Assembly: GCA_030407315.1 (NCBI GenBank)
Contig: JALQPE010001714.1
Coordinates: forward strand, 1-64,000
Length of the DNA stretch: 64,000 nucleotides
Reading direction: 5' to 3'
DNA from: Asparagopsis taxiformis
Taxonomy: Eukaryota > Rhodophyta > Florideophyceae > Bonnemaisoniales > Bonnemaisoniaceae
Shown here in pieces: positions 36,351-63,385 of the stretch; positions within the stretch are counted from its first letter, which is position 1, and each line of letters begins with the position of its first letter. Under the pieces are notes generated by a model, which was given only the letters and a program-made list of their open reading frames with translations, did not search any database and was not told the DNA's origin. Made by a program: the position numbers and the translations under genes.

Positions 36351-36480
36351 CGTCCGCATCCAAAAAATTTTTATTTTTTTTTGGACGCGGACGTTCATTT
36401 GTTCTAGTAAATCTCGGGGCCGACTAGGACCCGTACTAGAGAGACTGGACGTCCGCGTCCACTTCCGAAAACACAGACGT

Positions 36481-41689: not shown

Positions 41690-41807
41690 CTGTGTTTTCG
41701 GAAGTGGACGCGGACGTCCAGTCTCTCTAGTACGGGTCCTAGTCGGCCCCGAGATTTACTAGAACAAATGAACGTCCGCGTCCGAAAAAAAATAAAATTT
41801 TTTGGAT

Positions 41808-42118
41808 GCGGACGTCCACTTTCTCTAGTACATATGGCGGAATACTAGGGCCCGACATCCACTTTCTCTAGTACATATGGCGGAATACTAGGACCCGACA
41901 TCCACTTTCTCTAGTACATATGGCGGAATACTAGGACCCGACATCCACTTTCTCTAGTACATATGGCGGAATACTAGGACCCGACATCCACTTTCTCTAG
42001 TACATATGGCGGAATACTAGGACCCGACATCCACTTTCTCTAGTACATATGGCGGAATACTAGGACCCGACATCCACTTTCTCTAGTACATATGGCGGAA
42101 TACTAGGACCCGACATCC
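41808..42118. repeat. 43-bp subterminal tandem repeats of element B
   Basis: CCCGACATCC begins at 41851, 41894, 41937, 41980, 42023, 42066 and 42109, exactly 43 bp apart, after a first divergent unit at 41808. Six complete units are nearly identical, each holding CTAGTACATATGGCGGAATA. Confidence 0.95.
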
Positions 42119-42344
42119 AGTATACAATATATCAGCGAAAACCGGGAGGGAAGAAATTACAGCGGATGGTAAATTCAGGGCCCATATCGGACCGTATTTT
42201 ATTCTCTCATTTAGGAAACTGCTCGTATACAATACGTCTCTCTAGAATAGGGAATACATATCTGGTCAGAATAGGAAATAAATACCCGGTTAGAATAGGA
42301 AATAAATACCCGGTTAGAATAGGAAATACGTATCCAGCCAGAAT

Positions 42345-44085
42345 ACAAAATACCTGTCAGCATATCGTCGATCACCCATCTCCCTCACTATCGCGTTCTC
42401 CCTACCATCCGAACGCCATGCACCACCATCCGCACATACTGCAAGAACCCTCACGACCTAGATTACAAAAAATACGCTCCTTCCCAATACCATCCCCGCT
42501 TTCCTCGACACCACCCCAGCCCATTAAATCATCAAGACATCAAACACGAACATGGTCAGCAAAATCTTACACCACTTGAAACGCACTCTCACTTCTATCG
42601 TATGCCCCAAAATATACACATACCAGAAACACCTCACAGCTTCATTCCCCATCTTCCTACATCCCTTCTTCACTCTCCTTCAGTCCTGCCGTTCCTGCTT
42701 CACCACTCCTGCATCACATACACAACATCAGAATCAACCACAACAGTCAGACTCAAAAGCAACGCTTACCACGACAGATATCCTAGAAACTCCCTTACTT
42801 ACCTCTCCGAGAGGATGACTGAATCATCCATCCTACACAAAATACAAACCATGATCCAAAAACCTTGCAATGAATAATCAAAGTCAGCAGTCCATATCTT
42901 CGCAAAACAAGTCTTGGTGCTCAGTAAAACTTACCTTCTGTCATCAACATTCCTGCATCATCTACACAACATCGGAATCAACCACAACAGTCAGACTCAA
43001 AACCAACCTTCCATCACAGCATACTTTCAAAACTCGCACACTTACCTTCGCTCCACACAATACACACCATGACTCAATAGGCTTCCAATGAAAAATATCG
43101 CATCAACGGAAATAGTCAGACTCAAAACCAACCTTCCCTCGCTGCTTACTTTCAAAACTCGCACACTTACTTTACCTGTTCCATCCTGCACACAATAAAA
43201 ACCATAAATCACGTAATCGTGTAGCCAAGAAAAGTAGTCAGCATTCCGCATCTTCGCACAACCGGTCTGGGCGCCCAATGTGACTTACCTTCCGTCATCA
43301 CTATTCCTCCATCACCTACGCAACATCGGATTCAATCGCAACAGTCAGATTGAAAACCAACGTTTCCCTCGCTACATACCCTGAGAACTCGCAAATGTAC
43401 CTCTCATCCATCCTACACACAATACAAACCATGATCCAAAAACCTTGCAATTAACAATAATCATAGTCAGCAGTCCATATCTTCGCAAAGCACATCTTGG
43501 CACTCAATGAAACTTACCTTCCGTCATCAACATTCCTGCATCATCTACACAACATCGGAATCAACCACAACAGTCAGACTCAAAATCAACCTTCCCTCAC
43601 AGCATACTTTCAAAACTTCACGTACCTCTCTTCCATCCTCCGCTCAATACACACCATCAGTCAACAGGCTTCCCATGAAAAATATCGCATCAACGGAAAT
43701 AGTCAGACTCAAAACCCACGCTTCCCTCAACGCATACCCTCGAGGGTAGAGGATGGAACGAAGGTACGTGCGCGAATCTTGATCAAGATTCGCGCACGTA
43801 CAAAGCAAAGTCGGTCAAAGAAGATCAGTCGGTGATGAGGGCGGAGTGGAGCCTGCGGCGTCGACCGGACAGCTTTCTGCGTCCGCTTAAGTCTTGCTGT
43901 GCATACTCGAAATCATCGCCGGCAGTGAGATTGAGTATGGCCCAAGCCATGGTCTCTGATTCCCCGAACAAAGAGATCCGGATCGAGAACAACGAATATA
44001 AACATATAATCATATATATGAGAATCCATTTGCTTTCCTTACATGATCTGTGGCATATCCGCTGTAAAGCACATTCAGATTCCAC
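42345..44085 (-). CDS. outward-facing microexon gene in the terminus of element B
   Basis: The minus-strand first exon (about 44085 or 43950 to 43830) reads FSIRISLFGESET then MAWAILNLTAGDDFEYAQQD and a basic LSGRRKLSGRRRRLH, with no stop where element A has two. Candidate 27-nt exons are at 43518-43544, 43289-43315 and 42935-42961, and a 12-nt exon is at 43401-43412; they are flanked by GTAAGT-type donors and TGTGTAG, TGCGTAG or TGTGCAG acceptors. Introns contain CTGAC branch-like words. Exon lengths are multiples of three, so skipping keeps frame. Two local inverted duplications (43764-43801 and 42803-42829) disturb the series. Function unknown; no known domain. If transcribed, it reads from the element interior towards its end and would be present twice per element. 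Confidence 0.5.
43764..43801. repeat. 38-bp perfect palindrome in the microexon region
   Basis: GTACGTGCGCGAATCTTGA is followed by its exact reverse complement. Compared with the equivalent place in element A, the adjoining exon-donor sequence is inverted here, so the palindrome was made by a local fold-back inversion. Confidence 0.9.
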
Positions 44086-44398
44086 GAAGTTTGGAAATAA
44101 AAAAGTTTATTATTACAAATGAATTAATTGAAAATTCATCTCCCAGGGCAGTCGTTCGTCCTTCCATGCACACGTTGCCAGCACGCAATGTGATGTAACA
44201 GTTGGAAATGATTGAACTCTCGGTTAAATTCCACCGTTGGGATGTCAGCTGGAGTGAGCACAAAACTACTACCCAAAAAACTACGAACACGTTACATTCC
44301 AAGTCTCGAAAGCACCACAAAAATAAAATTGGTCGCATCTGGACGGCACAGTCTCCCCTGTTCAGCTCGCAATCCTCCCTTTTGCGTCAAAACTCGAC

Positions 44399-47300
44399 AT
44401 GGAATGCAAGTATGAAGGGTGCTTCTACTACTGCGTAGATGCTTATGCGCTCGCGCTGCATGAGCGAACGTGTCGCTACCGTTTCAACCCCTCTCCCCAA
44501 CATTTCAACAACGCTCGTGTCCCTGCCGTCACCCATGAGCCTGCTCGAAACGGCGACCATGATTCCCCGCAACCCAGCTCCCCAGACCCAGAATCTGGTC
44601 GTGCTTCCTCCAGCGACTCACCCTGTGACGCTTCACTGCCACCAACCTCAACCCCCTCCCGCGCAGACCTCCTCGTGCAATCCCTCGCCGCCAGTCTCAC
44701 AACCCTCGAGTACAAGGCCGGCGCTGGCCGCGTGAGCGAAGTCATCACCATCCTACAAGACCCCGCATTCTCCCTAGAAAAGTTCAACAGCGCCGTTCGC
44801 ACCGTAGAAGAATGTCGCCACGTTACCGCTTCCATGGTCGAAACACATTTCCGCACCGAAGGTTACAAGAGCCACATCATTCCAGACAAAACTGGTAAGT
44901 ACTCGGCACAGCTGTACCTCCGCGACCCAGTCGACATGCTCCGCAGGCAGTTAGCACTGGCTAACGACCAAAATACTCTCTTCCACCCCTCCCCACAGAC
45001 CGCCCCAGACGGCACCGCAATATTTTCTCATCCCCTACACACAGAATTCGCGAAAACGCTGCACCAGGTTACTAGACAGCGCGTGCAGCTCTCGGAAGAT
45101 CCACAGGTCGTATGGGCAGAGGAAAATGATCCCACCGCTTCCTCCTTTGCCGGCCTCCTCCAAGTGTACTCCGACAAGAGCAGCACAAGCCTCAAGAGCT
45201 CCGCAATCGTCGCATACCCCATACACGTCACACTGCTCAACTTCTCCGCCCCCCTCCGTCGCCACTGCATCCGTACCGGCCTCACCATCGTCGGGTATCT
45301 TCCGTACATTGTTAACCCTTCGTCCAACGCCTTGTTCGGTGATGAAATGCCGACAACCTCTAGTTCTGCTAGTCGCGCTCGCAAAATTGATATTCTTCAT
45401 AAAGCACTCGAAAAAGTGTTTTCGTCCCTATCCACCGCGTTCTCTTCCGGGTTCCCCTGCACAGACTCCACTGCAACTGCCCGCCAATGCTTTCCCATCC
45501 TAGCCAATTATTGCTGCGACTTTCCAGAGGCCAAAGAGCTCTCATGCACTCGCAACAGCACTACCACCACACATCCCTGCCACCGCTGCTACATCCCCGC
45601 CACTCAACTTGAATCCAGCGCGCCACACCAGCCCCGCTCCCTCGATGATACACGCTCTGCACGCCAAGAGAGCGCTCAGGAGCATACAACTGCTCCGCTC
45701 GAAGCTCTCTCCCTCCTCGAACAACACTCTGTCCTCGAATCGACCGCTCTTTTACCCACCAACAGTCCCCTAGACCCCTACAACATTTTCTCCTTCGAGC
45801 CTCTGCACAATCTCCACCTCGGCATCTCAAAGCTCATCAAACAGTGCATTGTCCACCGCCTCAGCTCCCCAGACCTCACCACCACTGCCTCCCATTCCGG
45901 GACACCTCGCACCTTCAAGAAGGTGAAAAAATCCATCCTCGCCGGCTCAAACAGCATTCTGTCCGCTATCGAACGCGACTACTACATCACCGGTCTTCAT
46001 GTCGACTTCTCCAAGGGTGAGAAGGGCACCAATTTGAACGGCCTCTTCACGGAGGACGGCATACGCGGCATGCTCGCAGCCAAAGACTATCACCATGTCG
46101 ACATGGTGTTCCCTTTCATCGCAGCATTCATTGACACATGCTGTGACGAAGTAGATACAGCCCCCCTCACTTCCATCTGCACGCAATACTCTGACCTCGT
46201 CGCATGGGTCATGAAACGCGGTCGCATCAAGCACTGGACTGCCGCCGAACTAGAAAGCCTCCAGAACTCCATTTCCTATTTCAAACAATCAATGCTCTCC
46301 ACCCTCGGCCCATTCCACACCACAGGTCTCAAAACTTTCAAGTTCCATCTTCTAGACCATCTTCCCGGTGACTTGCAGAGATATGGCGCCCTGGAACACA
46401 TTGATGCAGGCCCCTACGAACACTCGCATCTTCTGTTCAAACAGAGTTATAGGAAAACCTCTCGAAGGCGCTCCACAGCCATGGAAGAGACTATTCGCCA
46501 CATGGAATTCTCCTTGGCCACTCCAACTGGTCATACCCCATCGAACACATTGGGAAACGCACGCATGATATCGCCCACAGACGGTGCAGTACTCGTTCGC
46601 GACGGATTCACCGTTGCACTGCACGACTTTGCCTCCCTGCTGCCCGATGCAACCCTCCTCGTTGCAGATATCGACGGACAGCCCGATCCTGCCACTCTTT
46701 TGCCGCTGCACAACTCCTCGTTCCCGTCTGGCACCATAACGCTATTCCAGCAACTCGGTGACACAGCTGCACAAGCGTTCCTCACCCTCGCTAGACTGCG
46801 CGCCACGGCAGAAGGCCCTCCAATACATGACATGGACATTTCCGTCACCGTGGTAAAGTCCGCCTACGTCATGGGAGGGTACGTCCCAGATGCCGACGAC
46901 TTTGACCCGCACAGTGGCATGCTTCGCCCCACAAACGTGTCGAGGCACAAGCAGCAGCGCGTCTTTGCAACTTCATCGTTCGGCCCCGCAAAGAGATCGC
47001 AGTACTCCTTTGTCGTCATCTCCGGAACTGCCGATGACTACAGAACCATATGGGTAGGGCGCGTCCTGGCACTGGTACGCCTGCAGTCTCCAAACCTGTT
47101 TCAACCTGTAGAACTCGCTTTCGTTCAGTATATGACCTGCTTTGCCCCAAAAACCGCTGTGGAAAAATCACTTGGGTGCATTTGTTTAAAGTGGTCCACA
47201 TGGGACCCGGACAACGGATCCGTTGACAGCAATGACACTGCATCCCACAGTGCAGGTGGTCCTTGGTTTGACCTCATTCCTGCATCTACTATATCTGGCA

Positions 47301-47437
47301 CCGTGCACATCGTACGAAGTAACTTTCCAGTCAAGCCATTTACGAAACAAATGCACTGGTCGGACCACCGTTTCTATCTCAACCGCTTCTACACCAACAC
47401 TGATTACCAATTCACAGATGATAATGAAGAAGAATAA
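44399..47437 (+). CDS. KDZ/Plavaka-type transposase with N-terminal zinc finger
   Basis: The 1012-aa product would cut and reinsert the element. Residues 3-25 form a zinc finger (C3, C8, H21, C25). The RNase H-fold core starts with VYSDKSSTS (first catalytic Asp 259), followed by YPIHVTLLNF and IVGYLPYI. Next come TARQCFPILANYCCDFPEAK and CHRCYIP, the second cysteine cluster typical of Plavaka proteins. FEPLHNLHLGISKLI (E467, H470) is at the place where the family usually has D-x-LH; a Glu here is unusual and may affect catalysis. The HSHLLFKQSYRKTSRRRS region near residue 685 carries the final conserved residues. The gene has no intron or frameshift. It starts at the inner edge of the left terminus and converges on the next gene with a 75-bp gap. 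The ATG at 44399 is chosen because the zinc finger starts there. Confidence 0.82.
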   Translation: MECKYEGCFYYCVDAYALALHERTCRYRFNPSPQHFNNARVPAVTHEPARNGDHDSPQPSSPDPESGRASSSDSPCDASLPPTSTPSRADLLVQSLAASLTTLEYKAGAGRVSEVITILQDPAFSLEKFNSAVRTVEECRHVTASMVETHFRTEGYKSHIIPDKTGKYSAQLYLRDPVDMLRRQLALANDQNTLFHPSPQTAPDGTAIFSHPLHTEFAKTLHQVTRQRVQLSEDPQVVWAEENDPTASSFAGLLQVYSDKSSTSLKSSAIVAYPIHVTLLNFSAPLRRHCIRTGLTIVGYLPYIVNPSSNALFGDEMPTTSSSASRARKIDILHKALEKVFSSLSTAFSSGFPCTDSTATARQCFPILANYCCDFPEAKELSCTRNSTTTTHPCHRCYIPATQLESSAPHQPRSLDDTRSARQESAQEHTTAPLEALSLLEQHSVLESTALLPTNSPLDPYNIFSFEPLHNLHLGISKLIKQCIVHRLSSPDLTTTASHSGTPRTFKKVKKSILAGSNSILSAIERDYYITGLHVDFSKGEKGTNLNGLFTEDGIRGMLAAKDYHHVDMVFPFIAAFIDTCCDEVDTAPLTSICTQYSDLVAWVMKRGRIKHWTAAELESLQNSISYFKQSMLSTLGPFHTTGLKTFKFHLLDHLPGDLQRYGALEHIDAGPYEHSHLLFKQSYRKTSRRRSTAMEETIRHMEFSLATPTGHTPSNTLGNARMISPTDGAVLVRDGFTVALHDFASLLPDATLLVADIDGQPDPATLLPLHNSSFPSGTITLFQQLGDTAAQAFLTLARLRATAEGPPIHDMDISVTVVKSAYVMGGYVPDADDFDPHSGMLRPTNVSRHKQQRVFATSSFGPAKRSQYSFVVISGTADDYRTIWVGRVLALVRLQSPNLFQPVELAFVQYMTCFAPKTAVEKSLGCICLKWSTWDPDNGSVDSNDTASHSAGGPWFDLIPASTISGTVHIVRSNFPVKPFTKQMHWSDHRFYLNRFYTNTDYQFTDDNEEE

Positions 47438-47514
47438 ATCTAAATCGCAGCACTCTATTGATAATGTACTACATGATAAACCTTCTAGTCAACGTCACAT
47501 TTACTGCACTAATT

Positions 47515-49799
47515 TCAACCATCCTCCATTACGCCAAAACCGTTATCAGCAGTGGCTGCATGGCGCCGCTCCATGCCCCCATACTGTGGGGCATTGATTT
47601 CGACATTCAGGTTTGCAGTCAGGTGTCCAGCATATGGGTCAACGACGAAAAGTTCTGCGCCAATTAGTCCTTGCGCAATCACACAATCCATTACAGCACC
47701 GAGGTTTGACGTAATATGCGATTGAATCCAATCCTCGGACACTAGAACAAGTGATGAGCAGCGGTTTACATCATCAACGACATGAACAATTCCAGACCCC
47801 TCTCCGCTTTGCCACACTTCAACAGCCTCTCTCGTCACAGTACGGCTTGCAAACACATGCCGTGACTGTGCACTAGTCCGCTGTTCGCTCTCGACAACGT
47901 CCGTTTCTTCCCTTGCTTGCGAGCCTTGGAGACAAGACATGCAGTACACCACCATACCAACTAATTGCTGAAAAGCTACCCCCACATATTGACTGTACCG
48001 CCTTGTAAACTCCTTCTGCCGTGCACCTCCTTTCCCCTTCGGTTCATCCAAACACTCCACAGTAGTCACTAGCCAAGCATCCAGGCGCGCCAGCGTTAGT
48101 ATGCTCGTCTCTATGTCCATTACTTGTTCTGGTCGTATCGAATAACCCCTGAAGATGTCCAGCACATTCACAGCTACTCGGTTGTTAAACCATGCATCAC
48201 CATTCACTTCCATTTCGAAGCTGTCAGGAACCAAGCCTTTGCTGTATCGCAGCTCTGAGAACGGTGCCGTTCGCCACCTCCCCATATCCAAATCACCGTT
48301 ACTTTCCCGTTTCAAAAGCTTCTCAGACGCTTCGCGCTTTTGTTCCTCTCGCTCGTCCATCTCAGCTCGCGTCGTCAGCATCGTGCATCTAGACATTAAT
48401 TTCGTGTACCCCAGCGAACCGAACAATCTGTCCCTCGCATTACGCTTCCGTGCACTCATCACGTCGGACAGTTTCTGCGTCACCTTCACTTTCAATTCCT
48501 TGCTCCCCGCCACAGCCTCTTGACAGCACACACGCTGCTCCTCATCGGAAAACACATCACACCACGGACTTTGACGCAGTACGTGTCGCACCAAGTCATT
48601 CAGCAGATCACTCTCGTCCCTGTACGAAGGTGTATACCACTGCAGATTCTTGATGATATAGCCCGGAGGGGTAGCAATATATCCTACACCGTTTTCGCTC
48701 CAAAGTGCCCCTTCTACCGGCTCTACCTCGATGGTACGTCCAGTCCAACGTCTCTGCGTTTGTTCCGCTATAGGGTCCAGCTCCATAGTCTCGTTCTTGC
48801 ACCACTTTGTCAGGTTTTCCTCAACCGCCCTAAGAACTCCAAGGTATTTCACAGGAATGGCTTTCTGTATTTTCGACTTACCGCCACCGTGATCACTGAT
48901 TCTACCTGTTCTCGCAATTGCAGTAAGGCTGGCATTTTCCGCCTGCAGAGTCTTCACCTTAGCCTCCAACGCAACAATCTCCGTGGTGAGCGCCTTGTTT
49001 GCTATGTCCTGGCTAAACACTTTTTTTTCCAGCTCCGCGATCTTCTTCTTCTGCGCATTGATGCGACTCGCCATTAAATCGATGGATTCCGGCGGATGCA
49101 ACCTCTCTGCCCTCACCGTCCCCCCATCTCCCACGCTATCGGGAATATGATGTCCTCCATCGCCAATAGCCTGACGTCGCGGGGGCGTTACGCGCATATT
49201 TGGCACCAATGACACTCTGTTGTGACGAGGCCCGCACTCCGGCTGCTCTCTCCCCTCAGTACCACCTGACCGCCGATGATAGTTGGCATCCTGTGAACGT
49301 TGCTCAGAAACAACATCCCTTGCCGCTATCCTCGGGTCCCTGACTGCATTACCTGCTGGGGCTGATGTACTCGGCATAGTTGGCGCAGTGGGGGTCACAG
49401 CCTCCAGTGTCTCGGAACCCCCGGCTGGGACTCCGTCTGCAGCACCTCCGCATCTGCCAACCCGGGAGGAACTACCTTTGCCATAGCACTCTGCCGCAAT
49501 TCCAACATGTTTTGAGCCACTATCATGTCATCATCATGATGTTCACTGTCCCTGCGAGCACGCTTGCCTCGGTCAAGCCCCATCTCTCTCCGCGCCGTTC
49601 CTCCTTCCTCACTTTCTCGCTGCGGATCCCCAGTTCTGCGCCGGTCCGTCTTGCGACTACCGGACCGCGGTTCAATGCTGCCGGTAGGCCCAGACCGCTT
49701 CTTCGCACGGGATTGTCGGGCACTCGATACAGCAGCTGCTGACCGGGTTTTCTGGAGGCCCGGAGGCTTTGGAGCTTTCTTCGCAATACGCGGCGGCAT
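47515..49799 (-). CDS. element B accessory protein with coiled coil (one frameshift)
   Basis: The minus-strand start is MPPRIAKKAPKPPG at 49799. The first 134 codons are basic and disordered (KKRSGPTGS, GKRARRDSEHHDDD). A frameshift near 49400-49540 leads into a 627-codon frame to 47515. Residues around ASRINAQKKKIAELEKKVFS to LQAENASL form a long coiled coil (about 49070-48930). A compact region follows (KYLGVLRAVEENLTKW, RRWTGRTIEVEP, WYTPSYRDESDLLNDLVRHV), then a conserved-looking helical part (QKLSDVMSARKRNARDRLFG). No known domain is recognised. The BEN-like or DNA-binding role often played by such partners is only a guess. The convergent position with the transposase suggests a second transposition protein. 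The frameshift may be real decay or a sequencing error. Confidence 0.6.
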
Positions 49800-49984
49800 A
49801 ATGAAGCTTTCCCGGAAGCGATGGAACGATTGAGTTGCACGAGATACAAAAAAGATTGCTGTATAGTGTCGGTAACCACAACGGTCTGCGATGAACGTTC
49901 AGGTCAGGTCAAGTACCGGATAATACGCCAACAGCCCAGATTGTATACGGTAGGCAGTCATCAACAGTATTTAATGAGGTACAA
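49800..49984. other. upstream region of the accessory gene
   Basis: Short presumptive promoter side of the minus-strand gene; no distinct motif. Confidence 0.35.
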
Positions 49985-50590
49985 TTACAGCTGTCGAGCT
50001 AGGCCGCGAGCACCCCTATGTCCGGAAGACGTCCTGATTTGAATTAAAATTTGGGCTATTCTCAAAAACATGCACATGTGAACATGTTTTTGAGATGGGG
50101 GTGTGCCGTACGGCACAATCGACCGCCCAAATCGATGTTTTTTGCAATATTTTTTTGTGCCCGAAATTTTAGAATTTCTGGGCTGGCCAGCAATGCAATC
50201 GAGCTGGACATCCACCGGACGTCCATTTCAGGTTGGTCGTGAGAGAGCGGGGCGGGACCATGATGGAACAAGGACCAAGACCTGTCCCTGGCGTATTGAG
50301 CCTGAAATTGACCCTTCGTCAGACGCCATTTAGCCTTACAGTTGGTGCTTACAGAAGCCAGTGATGACCCCGCTCGGGGCGGCGGTCGGTTCCTGGGGCC
50401 GTTGTGGCCAAATTAGACACCCTGATTTGAATTAAAATTTGGGCTATTCTCAAAAACATGCACATGTGAACATGTTTTTGAAATGGGGGTGTGCCGTACG
50501 GCACAATCGGCCGCCCAAATCAAGGTTTTTTACAATATTTTTGCTGCCCGAAATTCTACAATTTCTGGGCTGGCCAGTAATGCATTAGCT
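49985..50590. repeat. two palindrome-rich units, reverse orientation
   Basis: The GTGCCGTACGGCAC palindromes start at 50103 and 50491, 388 bp apart. Units run opposite to those downstream of the methyltransferase gene. They contain CAAAAACATG…CATGTTTTTG and the CCCCGCTCGGGGCGG motif. Confidence 0.92.
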
Positions 50591-51054
50591 ATGTGCTCTA
50601 AACCGATTCTAACAAGCAGAAAGAATCCTCTCCTTCATGACGATGCTCTCGAATTGAGTGCAATGCAACGGACTCCCTCCAGGAGAACGACAAAGCATCG
50701 TCTTTTGCAAGACATTTTCGTACGAAAAATAATCGAAACACATATTTGACTTTAACCTAACAGCTATCGCGAGCACCGTACTCAGCTAAATTTCCTCTGT
50801 AATTTCCTTCCTCCAACCAATCAATAGCCGCTTGGTCACAGGCTTAAAAGCCTTCCACTATTTGTCCTATCCATCGAAGAGGGTTCGATCCAGGCCTTGA
50901 TGGGTGTGGAACCCGAGAACTTGAAAATGGAACATATTGCGACAGAGATGAGATGTCATTCTCTTTCGTTTACTTTTTTCTAACAAGATTCTAAACGTCT
51001 ACGCAGCGGAACGAACCCAATGTCGTCCGTCCGTTTTCAGCCCGGTGAGATGTT
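50591..51054. other. anonymous DNA between repeats
   Basis: No gene or repeat is recognised in these 464 bp. Confidence 0.5.
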
Positions 51055-51400
51055 TTTGCCATTAACGGAGGTGGAGGCGGCTATGGAGGAAGCCTGCGGT
51101 TCGGGTATTCTTTCCATTAACGGAGGTGGAGGTGGCGGCTTTGGAGGAAGCCTGGAGAACATGTGAGATGTCAGTACCCATGGATCACAAGAAAAACATG
51201 TAGAGGTCCAGTTTGGATATTGTTGCCATTAACGGAGGCGGAGGAGGCGGCTACGGTGGAAGCCTGGAGAGCATGTGAGATGTCAGTACCCATGGATCAC
51301 ATGAAGAACATGTTGAGGTGCGGTTCGGATATTCTTTCCATTAACGGAGGCGGAGGAGGCGGCTACGGTGGAAGCCTGGAGAAGAATAGAATAGTCCTAT
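51055..51400 (+). repeat. 112-bp minisatellite with Gly-coding core
   Basis: CCATTAACGGAGG recurs at 51059, 51114, 51226 and 51338 (one 55-bp and two 112-bp intervals). In one plus frame the core reads SINGGGGGGYGGSLE, but frames change between units and stops occur in the linkers, so a continuous Gly-rich protein is not encoded here. Confidence 0.8.
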
Positions 51401-51679
51401 ACCCATGGATCACAAGTAGACGTAGTTGGGCTCCTTTTCGAAGCCCATTCGTCTCTTGAATAAATTTAGCACCCAAATCATATACGATTGCCGAGTTGAC
51501 ACCCCGTATGTCTCGTTGGTAGAAATAGCAGGGGTTCCACCACTCAGCTGGCGGGAAGTAGTTACTGATTATATGAGATATGGCTTAGCTCCCGCCAAAA
51601 CCGATAGCTCTGGGCTCAGGTTCTCCAAATGTGGTTATACGAATGTGTTCTGACAATGGTAGAAGACGAATATCTGCAT

Positions 51680-55100: not shown

Positions 55101-55392
55101 GGACGACGAAAACATCGAGCATCCAATTTGGATTGTTCCGGCTCCGTTCTGTTCGGCGCAGTTCATCAACGACCCGCGGTATTTGCGAGGTGAGGACACT
55201 CCGGCGGAAGACACCAGGCGGATGGCCAACGTCGAGTTTGTCGAGAACTACAGCAGCGGTTCGACGGGGAAGAAGCTCAAGGCGAAGGACCTAGAAAATC
55301 CGAAGATCATTGTAGTACGTGCAATCCGCGATATCCGTCCGGGGCAGGAGCTCTACGTTCATTATGGGACAGCGTTTAGAGCATGGAATTAG
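52195..55392 (+). CDS. DNA amino-methyltransferase fused to a SET domain
   Basis: Predicted 1065 aa. Residues 1-430 have no recognised domain. The methyltransferase has catalytic motif IV first (LILTDPPYNVRRK, DPPY at 507-510), then an acidic low-complexity insert (about 585-621), then the SAM-binding motif DPFSGTFATGK (746-756). This order and the DPPY signature match beta-class N6-adenine/N4-cytosine methyltransferases of bacterial type, unlike the cytosine-C5 enzymes. The C-terminal part is a SET domain: GRGLFA (909-914), AYYGTVV (Y927, Y928), FINDPR (990-995, in place of RFINHSC) and GQELYVHYG (1050-1058). SET domains methylate lysines, usually of histones. ATG 52195 (MTNKRRRN) is preferred; an in-frame start 86 codons earlier gives a leader without domain character. 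Intronless, flanked by inverted palindrome-rich repeats. Which base is methylated cannot be told from sequence; DPPY favours adenine. Confidence 0.88.
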   Translation: MTNKRRRNSNPIVDDATVPILREPASPWEDSSDMGTRRNVGRAARETTLAGKDFLRLLLDLFAHSSFADLTDKPGGFTYADLGAWVAQGTEEQFVALQGRLSMSFSGRSKNAGVEADVAEIVMAEMNVERAKQIVRLALPIAEFSRQDERIGQWVEHCILSGIVPQTFLIGCNMLPSPLQAPQRGEPSAFVLAPPETFEVLMYFQALSIIRNHNKNLPRRRIGDAAEEGNEAARVPAHRKSTNRACYVVQVLYHAWTDVAYAAKFSSFEELMAPYIIFDSSEHWFDVLDEGLFAPMEQKLDLYHNKAPLSHPDGYGGKVETRTSAQHSAFRDLVRKFFDRLQFLIVNPDLYTWPESDRWGALEIYFSSGNPDKLPAYFDTLDEDVMAVLRPAPQAADAEKVPKPVDDTPTRRNTGGRGLVPSTRHTTRLQLGPGRTSLTAQGPSPPSPSPHATEEQESEGQALAKDFLSKMSQYCRVYDVPFEDLVSADESREHVPITGNVQLILTDPPYNVRRKRNDSNSSYDRLTAEDMQASIEVFDELLRPGGHGIVFCSVLQFYEWFHYLETYKGPQSEGPTDTAASDDGSDEEEVTSMNSDSEASQHSGEESADEEEDEEEEDVVRNSVFFVDEVPLLFVRLPGHLYQMPGRKRYQRMNMAEVAIHFWKRGVPFKTGSEMVAYRNHGYMDGTYPAWCNVTINMPAIDSNEMVWRTRSTTGATVRVRAEQKSVALMMELISQHSQPGDIVVDPFSGTFATGKAAMSLPEHRVFVGSDMDKLCVVRSLPKLCAVMSRVILSNNTDMRVTTEAKQSAEKFLASPSVTMRTQRERRIIEPPPGLPLYQRFPKYIRQYLWQLCPESIASREHMEKPVHYWPPSLRRWLQTENPRVMRAHDCVAKKLSVRPSLIKHPNAGRGLFAEQTFNVGDEVCAYYGTVVYSDMSKESMRFAYGEGHMAITKETFLMYAIKLYATAEDDENIEHPIWIVPAPFCSAQFINDPRYLRGEDTPAEDTRRMANVEFVENYSSGSTGKKLKAKDLENPKIIVVRAIRDIRPGQELYVHYGTAFRAWN

Positions 55393-55619
55393 GGTCACGA
55401 AAGATGTTTTCATTTCGACTACAAATAAAGCTACGTTCCAGAGTTGAAGTATATCATATAATGCAGAATGTCCAGCCACCATTAGTCCAGGGTGAAACCT
55501 ATTCGGCAGTACTCGCCTGTCAAAAACCAATCGTTCACACTCTAGGTGCACTTCGTCCGAGCAGTGAACCTGACTGCTTGGTTGCTGTTATGCGTGCAGA
55601 TGCAAAATACAAGACCAAG
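55393..55619. other. 3' flank of the methyltransferase gene
   Basis: Short untranslated stretch containing CAAATAAAGC (a possible AATAAA-like polyadenylation signal at about 55425) soon after the stop. Confidence 0.4.
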
Positions 55620-56730
55620 TTGAAATGGACGCCCGGTGGATGTCCAGCTCAGTTGCATTGCTGTCCAGCCCAGAAATTCTACAATTCAGGGCAGAAAAAA
55701 TATTGCAAAAAACATCGATTTCAGCGGGTCGATTGTGCCGTACGGCACACCCCCATCTCAAAAACATGTTCACATGTGCATGTTTTTGAGAATAGCCCAA
55801 ATTTTAATTCAAATCAGGGTGTCTAATTTGGCCACAACGGCCCCAGGAACCGACCGCCGCCCCGAGTGGGGTTGTCACTGGCTTCTGTAAGCACTAACTG
55901 TAAGGCTAAATGGCGTCTGACAAAGGGTCAATTTCAGGCTCAATACGCCAGGGACAGGTCTTGGTCCTTGTTCCATCATGGTCCCACCCCACTCTCTCAC
56001 GACCAACCTGAAATGCACGTCCGGTGGATGTCCAGCTCGATTGCACTGCTGGCCAGCCCGGAAATTCTAAAATTTCGGGCACAAAAAAATTGTAAAAAAT
56101 CAACGATTTCAGCGGGTCGTTTGTGCCGTACGGCACACCCCCATTTCAAAAACATGTTCACATGTGCATGTTTTTGAGAATAGCCCAAATTTTAATTCAA
56201 ATCAGGGTGTCTAATTTGGCCACAACGGCCCCAGGAACCGGCCGCCGCCCCGAGCGGGGTCATCACTGGCTTCTGTAAGCACTAACTGTGAGGCTAAATG
56301 GCGCCGGAAGATGGGCCGATTGCAGGCTTCAAGCCTAAGTTATGCTAGGGAGAAATCTTCTTCCGTGTTTCATCATGGTCCCGCCTTACTCCCTCAACAG
56401 AAACACTACTCACCCATCACGTTACTCATATTCCGTGCACTTTATATTAGTAGTGAACCCGCCTGCTTAGTTGCTGCAATGCGTGGATGTAGGCAGCACA
56501 CGACCAACCTGAAATGGACGTCCGGTGGATGTCCATCTCAGATGCACTGCTGGCCAGCCCAGAAATTCTAAAATTTCGGGCACAAAAAATCTTGCAAAAA
56601 TCAACGATTTGGGCGGGTCGATTGTGCCGTACGGCACACCCCCATCTCAAAAACATGTTCACATGTGCATGTTTTTGAGAATAGCCCAAATTTTAACTCA
56701 AATCAGGGTGTTCCCCGGATAAAGGGGTGC
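55620..56730. repeat. three tandem palindrome-rich units, forward orientation
   Basis: 14-bp palindromes start at 55735, 56123 and 56624, that is 388 and 501 bp apart, the same two spacings as at 61260-63180. Each unit starts CCTGAAATG(G/C)ACG, passes the GTGCCGTACGGCAC and CATGTTCACATGTGCATG hairpins and ends with CCCCGAGCGGGG-type words. Confidence 0.93.
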
Positions 56731-57055
56731 TCGCAGCCGCCCCAAAAGCCGCCTAGCTTGACAGCTGTAATTTTAACACATTACACATCAAGGACACTGC
56801 CTGCTTCACGCCACCTCGTCAGGTTTCGAGAGCCCGACTCGGGCCCGTTCTGAACGGACACTCACATCTCGATTGCCTGTCTTGCATTCCAGCGGTCACG
56901 ATAGGTGTGTACCTAACAAAATTTCGGTTGTATTGTGTTATTATTTCCAGCGATTGGCGTTCACGACCATTCTTCAACTTAACGTGAAACATACCATCCA
57001 CATCACTCGAATACGTCAACGTCAACCATCTCTTTTCCTTTCCAACTCAACAACC

Positions 57056-60000
57056 ATGGCGGATACGCATTTCAGCAGTTTGTTTTCAACGGTTTGCGGC
57101 GATCAAGTGAGCGCGTCAGCGGAGTCGCGCGGACTCAAGCGCGGCGTCGATGTCGACTTGTTTGCGGACGTGGACGGTGCGGCTGTGCATATTGGGACGG
57201 CTTCGGTGAGCACTGCTGGTGGCGATGTTGGCCTTCCGCGCACGCTGCACAACCACAAGCTGCCGGAAACCGACGAGGCCGACTATATCGTCGTGCGCAA
57301 CATTGCGACTAAGGACAAGTTCAAGGACCTCCCGTTCCCGTACATGTTTGATGGCGCCGAGGGACCGCCGGAGACGATGGGTGGAGCATACGCCGCGGCG
57401 TTTTACCCTTGGGATACTCGGATGATGCGCCCCGCTGCGGAGGATGGCTCTAGCGACATTCGTACCCCTGCTGCAGCGTCAAACTTCAACGCAGCGACGA
57501 ACCAGGCCAGCTCGGGACGGATGCCCAGTACCGGTCCAGCAGGCGAAATCACTGGTTCGGGGGGTACGAAGCATCCAGCACGCTCCGTCCCGGTTTCGGG
57601 AGGCACGAAGCGCCCTGCTCGCTCTGCCAGAGCCTCCAGTGGAGGCACGAAGCACCCTGCTCGCTCCAACGTCACCGAAGCTACTACGCAGGACGTAACC
57701 GAGGTGGACGACGAACCGGAGGTGGCGGAAAGCATTCGTGAGCAGCAGGGGACGCAAATTATGGTGCCCAAGTTTGTGACGTCGGATTACGTCGGAGAAG
57801 GAGCGACTGTGTTGGTGAGGCAGCTAGTGGAACCGGCCGTGACCCTTCGCGATGTCAAAGAAGACCACGTGGAGGACCTGCGCAACAATATGTTGGCGGT
57901 GGGGTATGTGAGCTCTTCGCGTATCACTGTGACGGTGCTGAGGTCGCAGAACACGCATTTGTCCGCCGACACGCGTCTGTTCCAGAATGGCAAATTCCAT
58001 GCCAATGCGAACGTGACCGTGATCGACGGACTGCATCGTCTCAATGCTATGCATAGCATTGCGGATGACTTCACGCGCCTCACCCGTATGCACAGAACCA
58101 AGCTGCCACAGGAGGCAAACCGCTTGCGCTGGGTTACTCAGCCTCTGGATGTGTACTACCTTCGCCGCAAGGACGACAGTGATCTCCAGCCTCATGAGAT
58201 CATCCACAAGAGTGCAGAGTCGAACCATACGACTGGGACGCAACTGACGGAGCGCTCCCTGGTTCGAATCTTGTCGTCCATCCAGCAGTTCATCCGTACG
58301 ATTGCTGTTGCAAACAACGTGGAAAACGCTGGCGACTTGCGTGAGTCTGATGTCATCCGAACATTGTTCGAGGCGCAGTTCATGGGGATGATGAATTCGA
58401 CGAACACGGCTCGGCGGTGGACGCGTTTGGCTATAGCAACGCTGAAGCATCCTGTTCTCGACGACGTGTTGCGTGAGCTGAACAATTCCGAGCGCCGCAA
58501 CGAGATTGGGATAACGCACCTGGACCACAAGATAGTGCGCGAGTTGCTGGAAGAAAACTTTGTCTTCGTCTTGCGTGGTCTTTCGGAGTACTTGAACCCT
58601 GCTCATGGCGGACGTCCGGATGGACGCTTTGACGTGAACGACTTTTATACATACGTCCGTCGCGTGACTGCAATAGCAAATTCTCTGTACGCTGCGTTTG
58701 GGCGCCCAAAGAGTATTATGCGCAAGTCATTTCTGAGCACAGAGATGGCAATTGGGTCGGTTAAGCAGCCGAAGGAGTTGCAATGGCATCTCACCAATGC
58801 CATTGCAATGTATAGAGGGGACGACCGGAGCAGTGAGGTTCGAATGCGACGGAGAACCACGCGTTTACAGGATTTGGAAACGAACTTGAAAGAGTTTTTC
58901 AATCCGACATTGAAGAAGAAGACTAAGGCTCGACGCAAACGCCGCCCTTCTGCTGCCAATGTGAGACTCACTCACAAGAAGCAGCGGAATGTCGAACATG
59001 AGCCTGCTTCGCATGGCATCCGCCGCCGTTCACAGCGACTTCGCTCGACGGGGAGCACACGCCTCGAGGAAGAAGAGCCGGTTGTGGTACAACAATCCGC
59101 CGGGGAAGAAGAGCAGGCCGTTGTTGATAAACCCACCGATCAACAACAAGCCACTGCTTCCGGTGATGAGGTTGACGAAGACTCCGCCCGTTCCCCCGAT
59201 TCTGCCGTTGAGATTGTCCCCCAAGATAACCAACGTGCTGGTGCGACTCCCTCCAACCAAGAATCTGTCCATACCGCTTCGGACGAGGAAGACAAACAGG
59301 GTGCAGACGAGGGCCAAGTCGAAAGCAAGGGGGTCCGCGAAGTGACAATTACATTCACTGTTCCGGAAGGAGTGGAAGTCGATGAAGACGGTTACATCGT
59401 TCGTGACTCTCCTTCTGAAGACGACCTCCTCTTCGACGACCGTATGCCGTCTCTTCCTGACGATTTCGAAGACCGAGCCGAAGGGCATCATCTGGCGCAG
59501 CGTCCCGCGGATGTCATCGCATCGGTGAGGGTTGGCTGTCTGCCCCCGATTGAGCTCAGGTTGTTATTGGAGAGTGTGGAAATCGATGAGGAGGGCAGAG
59601 AGGTGAGGTATTTGAAGCAAGTGGCGATGGACCCTGTGTTTGAGGGGCTGCATATTCCGGAAGAACATCGGGCTCGTGTGCTATTCGAAATCGATCACGT
59701 CTATCCGATGTTCTTCGCAGCGTGGAAGATGGCTGCCAAGGCGATGTGTGAGCCTACATCGACGTTTCTACCCTCGAGGCTGGACTTCGCTCAGGTTGCG
59801 CGAATGTCTACAAGCTGGAAGGATTCGTATGAGGCCGGCACTGGTATGGCGTACTTCCACAATTGCCGAACGGAAATCAACGAGCGAGGGTATACGGTGA
59901 TGCACAATTTCGCGGATGTAAGCTACCTAGATGCGTCGGACAAGTTCCCATTTGACTTGGGTCTCATGGAAGAAATTCCTAACCAGGAATTGTTTCGGTA

Positions 60001-60988
60001 CTTTTTGGGAACGTGGGAGGGGGAGCAGGTGCACAAGGACCCTGGGAACCGGCAGCTGTGGAGTCCCATTGTCAATACGGGGGACGATGAAACAGACGAG
60101 AAGAACCGGAATGAGGGGAGGGCTCGCTTCACGTCTACGCGCCACTGCCTGGTTGACTATGCCGAGAACGATGAGACGCATATCGACCGGTTCAAGTTTG
60201 TGACGCGGCGAGCCCTGCTGGATGTGTGGTTGGGAATCCTTGTCCGGCTGACAGGGCTGGAGGAGTGCGGTTTACCGGGAGAAAAACTTGTCATGCCGGC
60301 ATCTGGGGGACGGTTTTTGATAACGGGAAAGGGGTGTCCTCGGCAGGTCCCACACAATGATTTCCCTGTTCCTCCTCGCGACCGCAAAGATCAACTTCCG
60401 GGTTACTTTGTTATTGCCAACGGAGATGACCCATTCCCTATCTGGGTGTGTCCAGGGTCCCACAAGTACGTCTTTTCCAAAGCGCTGGAATTAGATATGT
60501 ACGCCAAGACGATGAAGCTGAAGAAGGTAATCGTTCCGCCACGTTCAGTCTTCATCGGTCACGGCCATGTACAACATGCCGGGGCAGGGCATGTCGACAG
60601 AGTTGTGTCACACACGACAACGAGGTATCACACGTATTTCAGGAATGCGTCGTATCCGATTCCCGACAATGTTTCGTTTGGTTTCATCAGGCGGTTGGGA
60701 TTCGAAGAAGAAGTCATCGCCAATGCTCCGCGCCGGTCTGCAAGGCAAAGTCAACCGGCACCTGTCAATGTTCGCCACAAGACAGTTGTTCCCATCCCGG
60801 TCAAGAAAGATGGTAGGCCGAAGACAGGGCAGCTCCGAATGATGCGGATGAAGACGACAGAACCTCGCAAGGATGTAATGCACACACCGAGTGTGGCCCC
60901 GGTAGTGCCTCTTCTGCCGGGACAACCTGGATATCTAGTTCACTATCATAGTGAGGACGAAGAGGAAGAACAGTTTTCCGACGGCTAG
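57056..60988 (+). CDS. ParB-like domain fused to a 2-oxoglutarate/Fe(II) dioxygenase
   Basis: Predicted 1310 aa from CAACCATGG at 57056; an earlier in-frame ATG adds 61 leader-like residues. Residues 166-205 hold three SGGTK(H/R)PARS repeats, basic and hook-like. A ParB/sulfiredoxin-fold domain follows, with VIDGLHRLNA at 322-331 (the D-G-x-H-R core). A long helical region leads to a basic stretch (KKKTKARRKRRPSA, about 620-640) and an acidic, disordered linker to about 815. The C-terminal double-stranded beta-helix has H1100-x-D1102 (PHNDF), WVCPGSH as in phytanoyl-CoA-dioxygenase-like folds, and the distal His cluster GHGHVQHAGAGH (H1169, H1171, H1174) with RYHTYF. The iron triad is thus available. 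Such enzymes hydroxylate or oxidise substrates; with a DNA-associated ParB module on the same chain, DNA bases or chromatin proteins are plausible targets, but this is inference. Intronless. Confidence 0.8.
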   Translation: MADTHFSSLFSTVCGDQVSASAESRGLKRGVDVDLFADVDGAAVHIGTASVSTAGGDVGLPRTLHNHKLPETDEADYIVVRNIATKDKFKDLPFPYMFDGAEGPPETMGGAYAAAFYPWDTRMMRPAAEDGSSDIRTPAAASNFNAATNQASSGRMPSTGPAGEITGSGGTKHPARSVPVSGGTKRPARSARASSGGTKHPARSNVTEATTQDVTEVDDEPEVAESIREQQGTQIMVPKFVTSDYVGEGATVLVRQLVEPAVTLRDVKEDHVEDLRNNMLAVGYVSSSRITVTVLRSQNTHLSADTRLFQNGKFHANANVTVIDGLHRLNAMHSIADDFTRLTRMHRTKLPQEANRLRWVTQPLDVYYLRRKDDSDLQPHEIIHKSAESNHTTGTQLTERSLVRILSSIQQFIRTIAVANNVENAGDLRESDVIRTLFEAQFMGMMNSTNTARRWTRLAIATLKHPVLDDVLRELNNSERRNEIGITHLDHKIVRELLEENFVFVLRGLSEYLNPAHGGRPDGRFDVNDFYTYVRRVTAIANSLYAAFGRPKSIMRKSFLSTEMAIGSVKQPKELQWHLTNAIAMYRGDDRSSEVRMRRRTTRLQDLETNLKEFFNPTLKKKTKARRKRRPSAANVRLTHKKQRNVEHEPASHGIRRRSQRLRSTGSTRLEEEEPVVVQQSAGEEEQAVVDKPTDQQQATASGDEVDEDSARSPDSAVEIVPQDNQRAGATPSNQESVHTASDEEDKQGADEGQVESKGVREVTITFTVPEGVEVDEDGYIVRDSPSEDDLLFDDRMPSLPDDFEDRAEGHHLAQRPADVIASVRVGCLPPIELRLLLESVEIDEEGREVRYLKQVAMDPVFEGLHIPEEHRARVLFEIDHVYPMFFAAWKMAAKAMCEPTSTFLPSRLDFAQVARMSTSWKDSYEAGTGMAYFHNCRTEINERGYTVMHNFADVSYLDASDKFPFDLGLMEEIPNQELFRYFLGTWEGEQVHKDPGNRQLWSPIVNTGDDETDEKNRNEGRARFTSTRHCLVDYAENDETHIDRFKFVTRRALLDVWLGILVRLTGLEECGLPGEKLVMPASGGRFLITGKGCPRQVPHNDFPVPPRDRKDQLPGYFVIANGDDPFPIWVCPGSHKYVFSKALELDMYAKTMKLKKVIVPPRSVFIGHGHVQHAGAGHVDRVVSHTTTRYHTYFRNASYPIPDNVSFGFIRRLGFEEEVIANAPRRSARQSQPAPVNVRHKTVVPIPVKKDGRPKTGQLRMMRMKTTEPRKDVMHTPSVAPVVPLLPGQPGYLVHYHSEDEEEEQFSDG

Positions 60989-61259
60989 ATATCTTAACAA
61001 CAACTACTTTAGCAAACAATTATCGAGAATATAATCATCTCCTTTATCACTTTCAATCTATGAACCTACTATAATGCACTTCCGTTCCATGCTTTCAAAC
61101 TAGATTGTCCATTCCCTAGTGGGTTGGAGCATGATTCCAGGACGATTCCCTCACATCTCTAGACTCGATGGTCTATGCTAGAAATAGCAGAACAATTGGG
61201 TTTATACGTGCTTCATCGCCAACTTGCTTCTGGTAATGGCTGGACGTGCACGATACACG

Positions 61260-63180
61260 ATCACCTGAAATGGACGTCCGGTGGATGTCCAACTCAGATG
61301 CATTCCTGGCCGGCCCAGAAATTCTACAATTTCGGGCACAAAAAAATATTGCAAAAAACATCGATTTGGGCGGTCGATTGTGCCGTACGGCACACCCCCA
61401 TCTCAAAAACATGTTCACATGTGCATGTTTTTGAGAATAGCCCAAATTTTAATTCAAATCAGGGTGTCTAATTTGGCCACAACGGCCCCAGGCACCGGAA
61501 CCGCCGCCCCGAGCGGGGTCATCACTGGCTTCTGTAAGCACTAACTGTAAGGCTAAATGGCGCCTAACGATGGGTCGATTCCAGGCTTCAAGCCTAAGTT
61601 ATGCTAGGGTGACATCGTTTCCCCTGTTCCATCATGGTCCTGCCTTACTCCTCCACGACAAACACTACTCACCCATCACGTTACTCGTATTCCGTGCACT
61701 TTGTATGAGTAGTGAACTCGCCTGCTTAGTTGCTGCAATGCGTGGATGTAGGCAGCACACGACCAACCTGAAATGGACGTCCGGTGGATGTCCATCTCAG
61801 ATGCACTGCTGGCCAGCCCAGAAATTCTACAATTTCGGGCACAAAAAATCTTGCAAAAATCAACGATTTGGGCGGGTCGATTGTGCCGTACGGCACACCC
61901 CCATCTCAAAAACATGTTCACATGTGCATGTTTTTGAGAATAGCCCAAATTTTAATTCAAATCAGGGTGTCTAATTTGGCCACAACGGCCCCAGGCACCG
62001 GCCACCGGCCCCGATCGGGGCTATCACTGGCTTCTGTAAGCACCAACTGTAAGGCTAAATGGCGTCTGACGAAGGGTCAATTTCAGGCTCAATACGCCAG
62101 GGACAGGTCTTGGTCCTTGTTCCATCATGGTCCCGCCCCGCTCTCTCACGACCAACCTGAAATGGACGTCCGGTGGATGTCCAGCTCGATTGCATTGCTG
62201 GCCAGCCCAGAAATTCTAAAATTTCGGGCACAGAAAAATATTGCAAAAAACATCGATTTGGGCGGTCGATTGTGCCGTACGGCACACCCCCATCTCAAAA
62301 ACATGTTCACATGTGCATGTTTTTGAGAATAGCCCAAATTTTAATTCAAATCAGGGTGTCTAATTTGGCCACAACGGCCCCAGGAACCGACCGCCGCCCC
62401 GAGCGGGGTCATCACTGGCTTCTGTAAGCACTAACTGTGAGGCTAAATGGCGCCGAAAGATGGGTCGATTCCAGGCTTCAAGCCTAAGTTATGCTAGGTA
62501 CGCATCTTCTTCCGTGTTTCATAATGGTCCCGCCTTACTCCCTCAACACAAACACTACTCACCTATCACGTTACTCATATTCCGTGTACTTTGTATTAGT
62601 AGTGAACCCGCTGGCTTAGTTTCTGCAATGCGTGGATGTAGGCAGCACACGACCAACCTGAAATGGACGTCCGGTGGATGTCCAGCTCAGATGCACTGCT
62701 GGCCAGCCCAGAAATTCTAAAATTTCGGGCACAAAAAATCTTGCAAAAATCAACGATTTGGGCGGTCGATTGTGCCGTACGGCACACCCCCATCTCAAAA
62801 ACATGTTCACATGTGCATGTTTTTGAGAATAGCCCAAATTTTAATTCAAATCAGGGTGTCTAATTTGGCCACAACGGCCCCAGGAACCGACCGCCGGCCC
62901 CGATCGGGGGCTATCACTGGCGTCTGTAAGCACCAACTGTAAGCCGGAGCCGGCTGCCGCCCCGATCGGGGCTATCACTGGCTTCTATTAGCACCAACTG
63001 TAAGCCAAAATCGCGTCTCACGAAGGGTCGATTTCAGGCTCAACACGTCAGGGAAAGGTCTTGGTCCTTGTTTCATCATGGTCCCGCCCCACCCTCTCGC
63101 GACCAACCTGAAATGGACGTCCGGTGGATGTCCAGCTCGATTGCATTGCTGGCCAGCCCAGAAATTCTAAAATTTCCGAA
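61260..63180. repeat. five tandem palindrome-rich units, forward orientation
   Basis: 14-bp palindromes start at 61380, 61883, 62272 and 62772 (spacings 503, 389, 500); a fifth, incomplete unit starts at about 63110 and runs into the right-arm sequence. Long and short units alternate. The long type has an added block of about 110 bp with AACACTACTCACC and TTACTC-rich sequence. Confidence 0.93.
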
Positions 63181-63385
63181 AAATCAATTTGGTGGCCCAG
63201 CATCTCCTGTGCCGAAAATTCCCGCACTCAGTTCTGATATACGTCTAGACGTGTTTCCCACTTGTACGCATCAGGGAAGGCGTCACGGAAGGTTGACACT
63301 ACGCTACTTGTGTACCGCGTCGTCTGAAATAGCGAGTAGTGTTTGTTGTATAGTTGTGGAGTATGCGTCTAGTGGTTTGTAAAGC
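63175..63385. repeat. start of the right arm of element B
   Basis: AAATTTC, GGTGGCCCA, TGATATACGT, TACGCATCAGG and the GAGTAG words occur in the same order as at 33520-33710 of element A's right arm, with about three-quarters identity by eye. The match ends after TTGTATAGT. Confidence 0.75.

Follow-up and report, generated by a model that had tools for sequence, protein, structure and literature searches.

Giant Plavaka repeats have been described before, as have transposons that carry epigenetic enzymes. Plavaka has been placed near EnSpm/CACTA and not in KDZ (Kyakuja/Dileera/Zisupton), with target duplications of 2-3 bp and termini of TGT..ACA (PlavakaA) or CATCA..TGATG (PlavakaB), and TET/JBP oxygenases occur on fungal transposons including Plavaka (Kojima 2025, PMC12730594). 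The available text of that account mentions neither a DNA methyltransferase (MTase)-SET fusion nor a ParB fusion. It cites the HarbingerS and MuDR elements of Phytophthora, which likewise carry a SET histone methyltransferase but belong to other transposase superfamilies, and in the same text no SET-DNA methyltransferase fusion is mentioned. In Amoebidium, giant Plavaka repeats have gene matches reported to red algae and dinoflagellates; their cargo includes many tyrosine recombinases, whilst an MTase-SET or ParB oxygenase is unmentioned in the accessible part of the paper (PMC11244446). Dinoflagellate and charophyte retrotransposons have their own DNA methyltransferase, a C5-cytosine DNMT (PMC5890265). 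In bdelloid rotifers a permuted amino-MTase of bacterial type, N4CMT, is joined to a chromatin domain (PMC8885841).

Here we describe a transposon in the red alga Asparagopsis taxiformis for which these are the closest known systems. It resembles the fungal elements in its Plavaka transposase, terminal repeats and 2-oxoglutarate (2OG) oxygenase cargo, but has different ends and a PhyH-like oxygenase. Unlike the retrotransposons it is a DNA transposon with a bacterial-type amino-MTase, and whereas N4CMT is a host-captured gene with a chromodomain reader, the MTase here is carried by a transposon and joined to a SET writer. Neither of the two fusions (MTase-SET and ParB-oxygenase), nor the pair together, turned up in the open-access literature searched.

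The element is a Plavaka-type DNA transposon of 23,137 bp (~23.1 kb; contig C1593, 41687-64823, + strand). It occupies 41687..64000 of the 64,000-nt stretch analysed (the window) and ends 823 bp beyond it. Terminal inverted repeats of the family are 33 bp and imperfect; the left repeat is CGTCTGTGTTTTCGGAAGTGGACGCGGACGTCC (41687..41719, +), and its counterpart at the right end is CGTCTGTGTTCTCGGAAATGGACGCGGACGTCC when read on the opposite strand. The right boundary was set from the point at which homology between copies stops abruptly, together with this inverted repeat. The right arm of the first-pass annotation was amended accordingly: the element ends at contig position 64823, and the arm's internal repeats begin at ~61.2 kb. 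The element ends, CGTCTGTG..CACAGACG, match the termini of neither PlavakaA nor PlavakaB, so that the element is of Plavaka type but belongs to neither known subgroup. Subterminal tandem repeats of 43 bp (family D3, spacing 43) were identified by repeat comparison at 41811..42119 (+). Internal repeats flank both cargo genes. Those between the MTase and ParB genes (55546..56734; D2, D5, D8, D11) have direct repeats in the right arm (61191..63176; D2, D8, D11), and a third set (50027..50585; I4, I5, I10) is inverted relative to both.

A terminus shared with a neighbouring element A had also been reported, and the same 30 bases were found at 23909 and 41690 (+) and reversed, ending at 36476. Element A (~12.6 kb, 23906..36479) has the left-type terminus at both ends, as judged by terminus matches. 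It holds only two ORFs of at least 150 aa, neither among the four genes described below, and is probably non-autonomous.

The target site was read from flanks. An empty site at C789 fits insertion of copy C436 with a TA duplication, and TA also flanks C503. Duplications of 4 bp (ACGT) and of CG were considered and dropped, as the C789 empty site and paralogues of other targets favour the CGTCTGTG terminus with TA. Flanks were unmatched in five of the seven elements read at both ends (A, C1569, C1565, C1593 and C12), possibly because copies have recombined or because contigs were wrongly joined in an assembly rich in repeats. For the window's copy, a search with the joined flanks gave matches to each of the two halves but no empty site.

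The element encodes four genes, all of them uninterrupted ORFs as originally described. The 1012-aa transposase (44399-47437, +) matched Plavaka PF18759 (E=1.6e-24; 87.2 bits, cut-off 26.3), its sole Pfam family at E<=1. The earlier label of KDZ/Plavaka therefore stands for Plavaka, and KDZ membership was rejected. Its translation contains CHRC (C2C) and HLLDH (H3H), motifs of CMC-like transposases. Convergent with it lies a gene for a coiled-coil accessory protein (47515-49398, -), whose coiled-coil Pfam matches were all under curated cut-offs. In copy C26 this gene has a longer frame of 761 aa.

The third gene (52195-55392, +; frame open from 51937) encodes 1065 aa from its ATG and joins a DNA amino-methyltransferase (N6_N4_Mtase, PF01555; 56.8 bits, cut-off 26.7) to a C-terminal SET domain (PF00856; 29.5 bits, cut-off 22.4). 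The MTase is permuted, with motif IV (DPPYN) near residue 593 and an FxGxG-like motif I (DPFSGTFATG) near residue 832 in the frame of 1151 residues. This is the beta-class order, in agreement with the first-pass reading of a beta-class MTase fused to SET. Its catalytic motifs are kept and its nearest solved sequences are DpnA and CcrM. The SET part matched KMT5A/SETD8 and KMT2 weakly as its nearest solved sequences and retains GRG and YVHYG segments. SET domains usually have an NHSC-like motif; here FINDPRY occupies that position, making SET activity uncertain. All 40 scored genome copies were 100% identical over the query, and protein P0001 was 98% identical to the MTase-SET.

The fourth gene (57056-60988, +; frame open from 56873) encodes 1310 aa with a ParB/sulfiredoxin-fold domain and a PhyH-like 2OG-Fe(II) oxygenase. 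The protein matched no Pfam family at E<=1, and as a whole query it returned no homologues. A search with the oxygenase part alone returned 10, and both domains were supported by the homologue alignment and by AlphaFold models compared with the PDB. An HxD ... H triad and the 2OG arginine (R) are conserved among the homologues, the modelled oxygenase has a double-stranded beta-helix, and the ParB-like part has a ParB-N fold with a DGxHR-type motif. PhyH-type enzymes were on top among the structural matches listed. From these models the protein looks like a PhyH-like oxygenase on a ParB-fold domain. TET/JBP gave no Pfam match at E<=1, no PDB sequence match and none among the Foldseek matches listed, so a TET/JBP identity is unsupported, although absence from so limited a list does not in itself argue against it. 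The closest folds mostly act on small molecules; DNA thus need not be the substrate.

The 141.5 Mb assembly (3,156 contigs) was searched for further copies. Its rDNA (L009) looks red-algal, and a light-harvesting protein (L036) has 7y5e and cryptophyte/red-algal antenna chains among the best matches listed. Exact 30-mers of the ends were found 1,256 (left) and 1,232 (right) times, and exact 31-mers of the transposase, MTase-SET and ParB-oxygenase genes 925, 812 and 211 times. Haplotypes that were assembled separately may raise these counts, and the requirement for exactness may lower them. As a control, all five patterns (two from the termini, three from the genes) read backwards gave 0 matches. 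Four of six fetched copies had the left end, transposase, coiled-coil, MTase-SET and ParB-oxygenase in one order. Genes in the fetched copies were 99-100% identical, save one ParB at 98.9%. BLAST matches were dropped at 300 nt or less in the six-copy comparison, at 250 for a 15.6-kb form, at 600 for the right boundary and at 500 and 150 in the comparison used for repeats.

Neighbourhoods were sampled on contigs up to C191 (49 MTase, 16 ParB and 68 transposase places, 89 left and 97 right ends). A transposase or end pattern lay near 44 MTase places and was absent from five; with 3,413 features spread over 141.5 Mb, we estimate that about half would have such neighbours by chance, so weight is placed on fixed spacings. 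In all 16 cases the ParB gene lay 3.35-4.81 kb from a facing right end. Further spacings came from contigs up to C215 (56 MTase, 18 ParB, 76 transposase and 100 left-end places). An opposite-strand transposase lay at 7,116-7,152 bp from 15 MTase places, and a same-strand transposase lay upstream of others, at ~8.7 kb in five and 8.3 kb in two. Seven ParB genes were 6,292-6,303 bp from a same-strand MTase, whilst nine of 18 had no MTase pattern within 12 kb. The MTase and the oxygenase are found again and again between the ends, and at the sites examined both look element-borne and not like single host genes. Co-occurrence of the genes held in part. The oxygenase is optional, with 211 exact matches against 812 for the MTase and 925 for the transposase; since it is missing from many copies, a write/erase pair is not obligatory. 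Among 24 left-right end pairs (contigs up to C191; those above 25 kb may cover more than one element), 13 were 10-12 kb in size and lacked all three exact gene patterns. Taken together, the ends, the transposase and the many copies bear out a giant transposon with shared cargo. It represents a recently amplified, autonomous-looking Plavaka-type family, with a long form of about 22.5-23.4 kb carrying the transposase, coiled-coil, MTase-SET and, in a subset, ParB-PhyH genes.

It is about an even call whether the cargo of this recently amplified family serves as an epigenetic kit for counter-silencing or self-marking. The MTase-SET would methylate element DNA at N6 of adenine or N4 of cytosine and, in the nucleosomes on that DNA, would also methylate histone lysines. 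The ParB-like domain would load onto element DNA, perhaps at the arm repeat arrays, and recruit the oxygenase, which would oxidise a DNA or protein mark, such that the transposase gene stays readable or the element ends stay recognisable. In favour of this reading are the copy counts with their controls, the shared gene order, the spacing of ParB genes from right ends, the empty site, the low nonsynonymous shares given below, the retained catalytic motifs and the published precedents. Against it stand the optional oxygenase, its small-molecule fold relatives, the atypical SET motif, the unmatched flanks, the relaxed patterns of some diverged copies and CpG, which is not depleted in the element (o/e 0.96), so that the sequence bears no trace of 5mC silencing that would need evading.

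Alternatively, the cargo may be aimed at others. The MTase-SET would silence host genes or competing transposons, or aid host tolerance, with the oxygenase acting on a protein or small molecule and not on DNA. The small-molecule oxygenases among the best PhyH-like matches and the weak similarity of SET to KMT5A/KMT2 are consistent with this, as is the bdelloid enzyme, which marks transposons and is a proposed silencing aid in the available text (PMC8885841). We consider it rather unlikely, as the fusion to a ParB fold points to nucleic acid, every checked ParB gene lies beside an element right end and element features near MTase places exceed the estimated chance level.

A passenger role, in which internal repeats capture and shuffle genes that hitch-hike on a successful transposon without a part in its life cycle, is quite unlikely. 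In the 15.6-kb form the MTase cassette is inverted and the oxygenase cassette absent between repeats, which fits recombination between them, and the short end pairs without gene patterns also favour such a role. With copies this young, intact frames say little by themselves. Substitutions were compared with a site-based neutral expectation of ~3.2-3.4 nonsynonymous per synonymous change, and most compared copies fell below it. Synonymous/nonsynonymous counts were 9/2, 7/2 and 12/1 for ParB in three copies, 12/8 and 14/11 for MTase in two and 9/4 for transposase in one. Some diverged copies showed relaxed patterns nearer neutral (C12 transposase, 17/19; C1565 ParB, 19/19; C12 coiled-coil, 11/21 with a stop). 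These ratios suggest purifying selection on the cargo, with exceptions, and the MTase pattern is nearly as abundant as that of the transposase, both arguing against mere carriage.

An integrated giant-virus or virus-like fragment is highly improbable: the large size and intronless genes, and the coexistence of viral and Plavaka repeats reported in the accessible part of the Amoebidium study (PMC11244446), are outweighed by the transposase, the well-defined inverted repeats at the termini, an empty site that is precise and the position of the other ORFs of at least 150 aa, antisense to the four genes or in arms and repeats. Scans of viral contigs with the MTase-SET and the ParB-oxygenase returned no match.

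The epigenetic reading of the cargo can be taken further, to a transposon with its own epigenetic system in which a single protein links amino-methylation of DNA, of bacterial type, with methylation of histone lysines, a ParB-like DNA clamp with an oxygenase edits the mark and chromatin state is copied along with the DNA. In this full form we regard it as doubtful. The element may affect its own reading or silencing by the cell. If active, the MTase-SET would unite in one natural protein the writers of a DNA mark and of a histone mark, in hundreds of copies, and the element would be a source of non-5mC DNA marks in a eukaryote, with a ParB-type domain steering an oxygenase. It would also make testable whether a transposon can set its own chromatin state. 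Since each end occurs over 1,200 times in 141 Mb, the family could be a notable share of the host genome.

The giant Plavaka-type element, which starts at position 41,687, was delimited by tracing its contig (JALQPE010001714.1, here C1593; other C-numbers are contigs of the same assembly) beyond the window to the contig end at 80,590. Homology to five other copies broke off abruptly at contig position 64,823, at a sequence that repeats the left end imperfectly and in inverted orientation. Five elements with both ends located measured 22,483-23,381 bp, excluding the outermost CG of each side. Exact 30-mers from the left and right ends occurred at 628+628 and 619+613 places in the genome, respectively, and the control, with the pattern read backwards, at none. 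Exact 31-mer counts were 925 for the transposase, 812 for the amino-methyltransferase-SET gene (MTase) and 211 for the ParB-oxygenase gene.

All four genes lay where the first-pass annotation had placed them, each as a long uninterrupted frame. A Pfam scan recovered the Plavaka transposase, amino-methyltransferase and SET domains above cut-off. The MTase motifs are permuted, with DPPYN preceding DPFSGTFATG, and the closest solved sequences are DpnA and CcrM. N6-adenine or N4-cytosine methylation is thus expected, as is general for this family. The SET domain is divergent and by weak match lies nearest to KMT5A/SETD8 and KMT2. For the ParB-oxygenase protein no Pfam family was found at E≤1, and DndB matched three of five scanned relatives, far below the Pfam cut-off. 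Its C-terminal part retrieved 10 relatives (32-36% identity) in a homologue search, seven of which also matched the N-terminal half in the same order by tblastn. Of the remaining three, P0004 and P0008 are shorter proteins, and in P0009 a ParB region emerged from the multiple alignment only. The HND motif, second histidine and arginine of the oxygenase are kept in all 11 aligned sequences. The coiled-coil gene (window 47515-49800) forms a 761-aa frame in C26 (stretches L030/L031); in the window copy its N-terminal segment lies in a different frame from the remainder, and C436 and C1565 are identical to the window there.

The first-pass annotation had called for further copies carrying the same genes, and these exist. 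Six MTase copies were fetched with their surroundings, and four (C503, C436, C1569, C1565) carried the left end, transposase, coiled-coil, MTase-SET and ParB genes in one order. The C1565 ParB gene aligned at 98.9% over 3,999 of 4,116 bases. C749 holds MTase and ParB genes on a contig that stops short of the transposase, and C476 has undergone rearrangement and contains only part of the ParB gene. MTase-transposase spacing is stereotyped: among the 56 MTase places listed, the two lay on opposite strands approximately 7.1 kb apart in 15, and on the same strand with the transposase 8.3-8.7 kb upstream in seven. Among matches listed up to contig C191, a facing right end lay 3,350-4,811 bp from the ParB gene in 16 of 16 cases. 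Five of the 49 MTase places in this range lacked any transposase or end pattern at the distances searched, possibly because contigs stop there or because matches had to be exact. The same matches held 24 facing left-right end pairs under 30 kb. Thirteen spanned 10.0-12.0 kb and contained no exact match to the three gene patterns used (transposase, MTase and ParB); 11 held the transposase, six of these also the MTase, and one of those six also the ParB gene.

Structural variants were also found. The element in C12 has both ends and is 15.6 kb long; its MTase cassette is inverted, its MTase frame is broken into two and it lacks a ParB gene. The cassette is likewise inverted in C26, where the MTase is a single frame (99.1% identity) and the contig stops ahead of any right end. 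Long inverted repeats flank the cassette (window 50140-50512 and 55727-56099, 96% complementary), and direct repeats flank the ParB gene (56242-56541 with 61501-61800 and 62391-62690, 92 and 95%). Judging from the break positions, homologous recombination between the former would invert the cassette and between the latter would delete the ParB gene, which fits the inverted, ParB-free form.

The copies are closely similar. Our query protein was 100% identical to all 40 MTase copies scored (of 4,566 candidates), and DNA identity to five other copies was 99.7-100% over 5.5-6.5 kb in the main alignment. Site counts predict approximately 3.2-3.4 nonsynonymous changes per synonymous change under neutrality. 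Synonymous/nonsynonymous counts were 9/2, 7/2 and 12/1 for ParB in three compared copies, 12/8 (C26) and 14/11 (C12) for the MTase and 9/4 for the C476 transposase. Less favourable were the C12 transposase (17/19) and coiled-coil gene (11/21, one stop) and the C1565 ParB gene (19/19, nine gap columns); in C26 the transposase gave 0/1 and the coiled-coil gene 0/2. Nonsynonymous changes thus often appear scarce where copies differ, in pairs that are non-independent and numbers that are small.

At C436, the joined flanks matched contig C789 from end to end at 98%, with four bases fewer at the junction. C789 is best read as the empty site, with TA duplicated and the terminus CGTCTGTG. A further 36 places matched these flanks end to end (87%, 181 bases versus 200); in the single one read, L038, bases were absent around the junction, so the 36 are taken as related rather than exact empty sites. 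TA lies on both sides of C503. Matching flanks were not seen for element A, C1569, C1565, the window's own copy or C12, and a search with the joined flanks of the window's copy found no empty site. These comparisons thus demonstrate precise insertion for one element, C436, lend support to it for a second, C503, and fail to show it for the other five.

Element A (window 23906-36479) has a left-type terminus at both ends and long inverted arms. It contains no ORF of at least 150 aa resembling any of the four genes, and is probably a non-autonomous or derived relative. The positions of exact patterns alone indicate a palindrome of approximately 10.4 kb at C100:220072-230489, bounded by two left-type ends and containing two transposase patterns that face each other. 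A second, diverged oxygenase fragment of the ParB-oxygenase family lies at contig C1593 75842-76594 (minus strand; L007:1842-2594), with 22-30% identity to P0002, P0003, P0004, P0008 and P0009; such genes may therefore occur in several element families. Elsewhere, minus-strand frames at window 5669-8348 look like rearranged gene fragments, presumably a plant-type phosphofructokinase-like stretch joined to an acetyl-CoA-carboxylase-like one. A 118-bp repeat array forms two blocks at 10787-13395, and a 507-aa frame at 15151-16674 (minus strand) has a coiled-coil-looking N-terminal stretch and a layout resembling the element's accessory protein.

Plavaka elements with oxygenases (PMC12730594), giant clusters of Plavaka genes in Amoebidium, with matches to red algae among their genes (PMC11244446), and other transposons carrying SET genes (PMC12730594) or DNA methyltransferases (PMC5890265) are already described. 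The open-access literature searched yielded no report of an amino-MTase-SET fusion or a ParB-PhyH fusion, nor of a transposon carrying the two together. According to a figure legend in PMC12115072, two methyltransferase genes, labelled 'site-specific' and 'adenine-specific DNA methyltransferase', are drawn close to the bromoform (mbb) locus of Asparagopsis taxiformis; should the host, probably a red alga, belong to this species, they may be copies of the element's MTase-SET.

A point against a counter-silencing role is the CpG observed/expected ratio of the element, 0.96, a lack of depletion that leaves no trace of 5mC-based mutation. For fungal transposon-borne TET/JBP genes, a similar interpretation to ours was offered by their describer (PMC12730594). 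Here, one putative DNA- and histone-methylating protein, with a DNA-clamp-like oxygenase beside it on a very high-copy transposon, suggests that the cargo, with its predicted methylation and oxidation activities, would serve in counter-silencing or self-marking.
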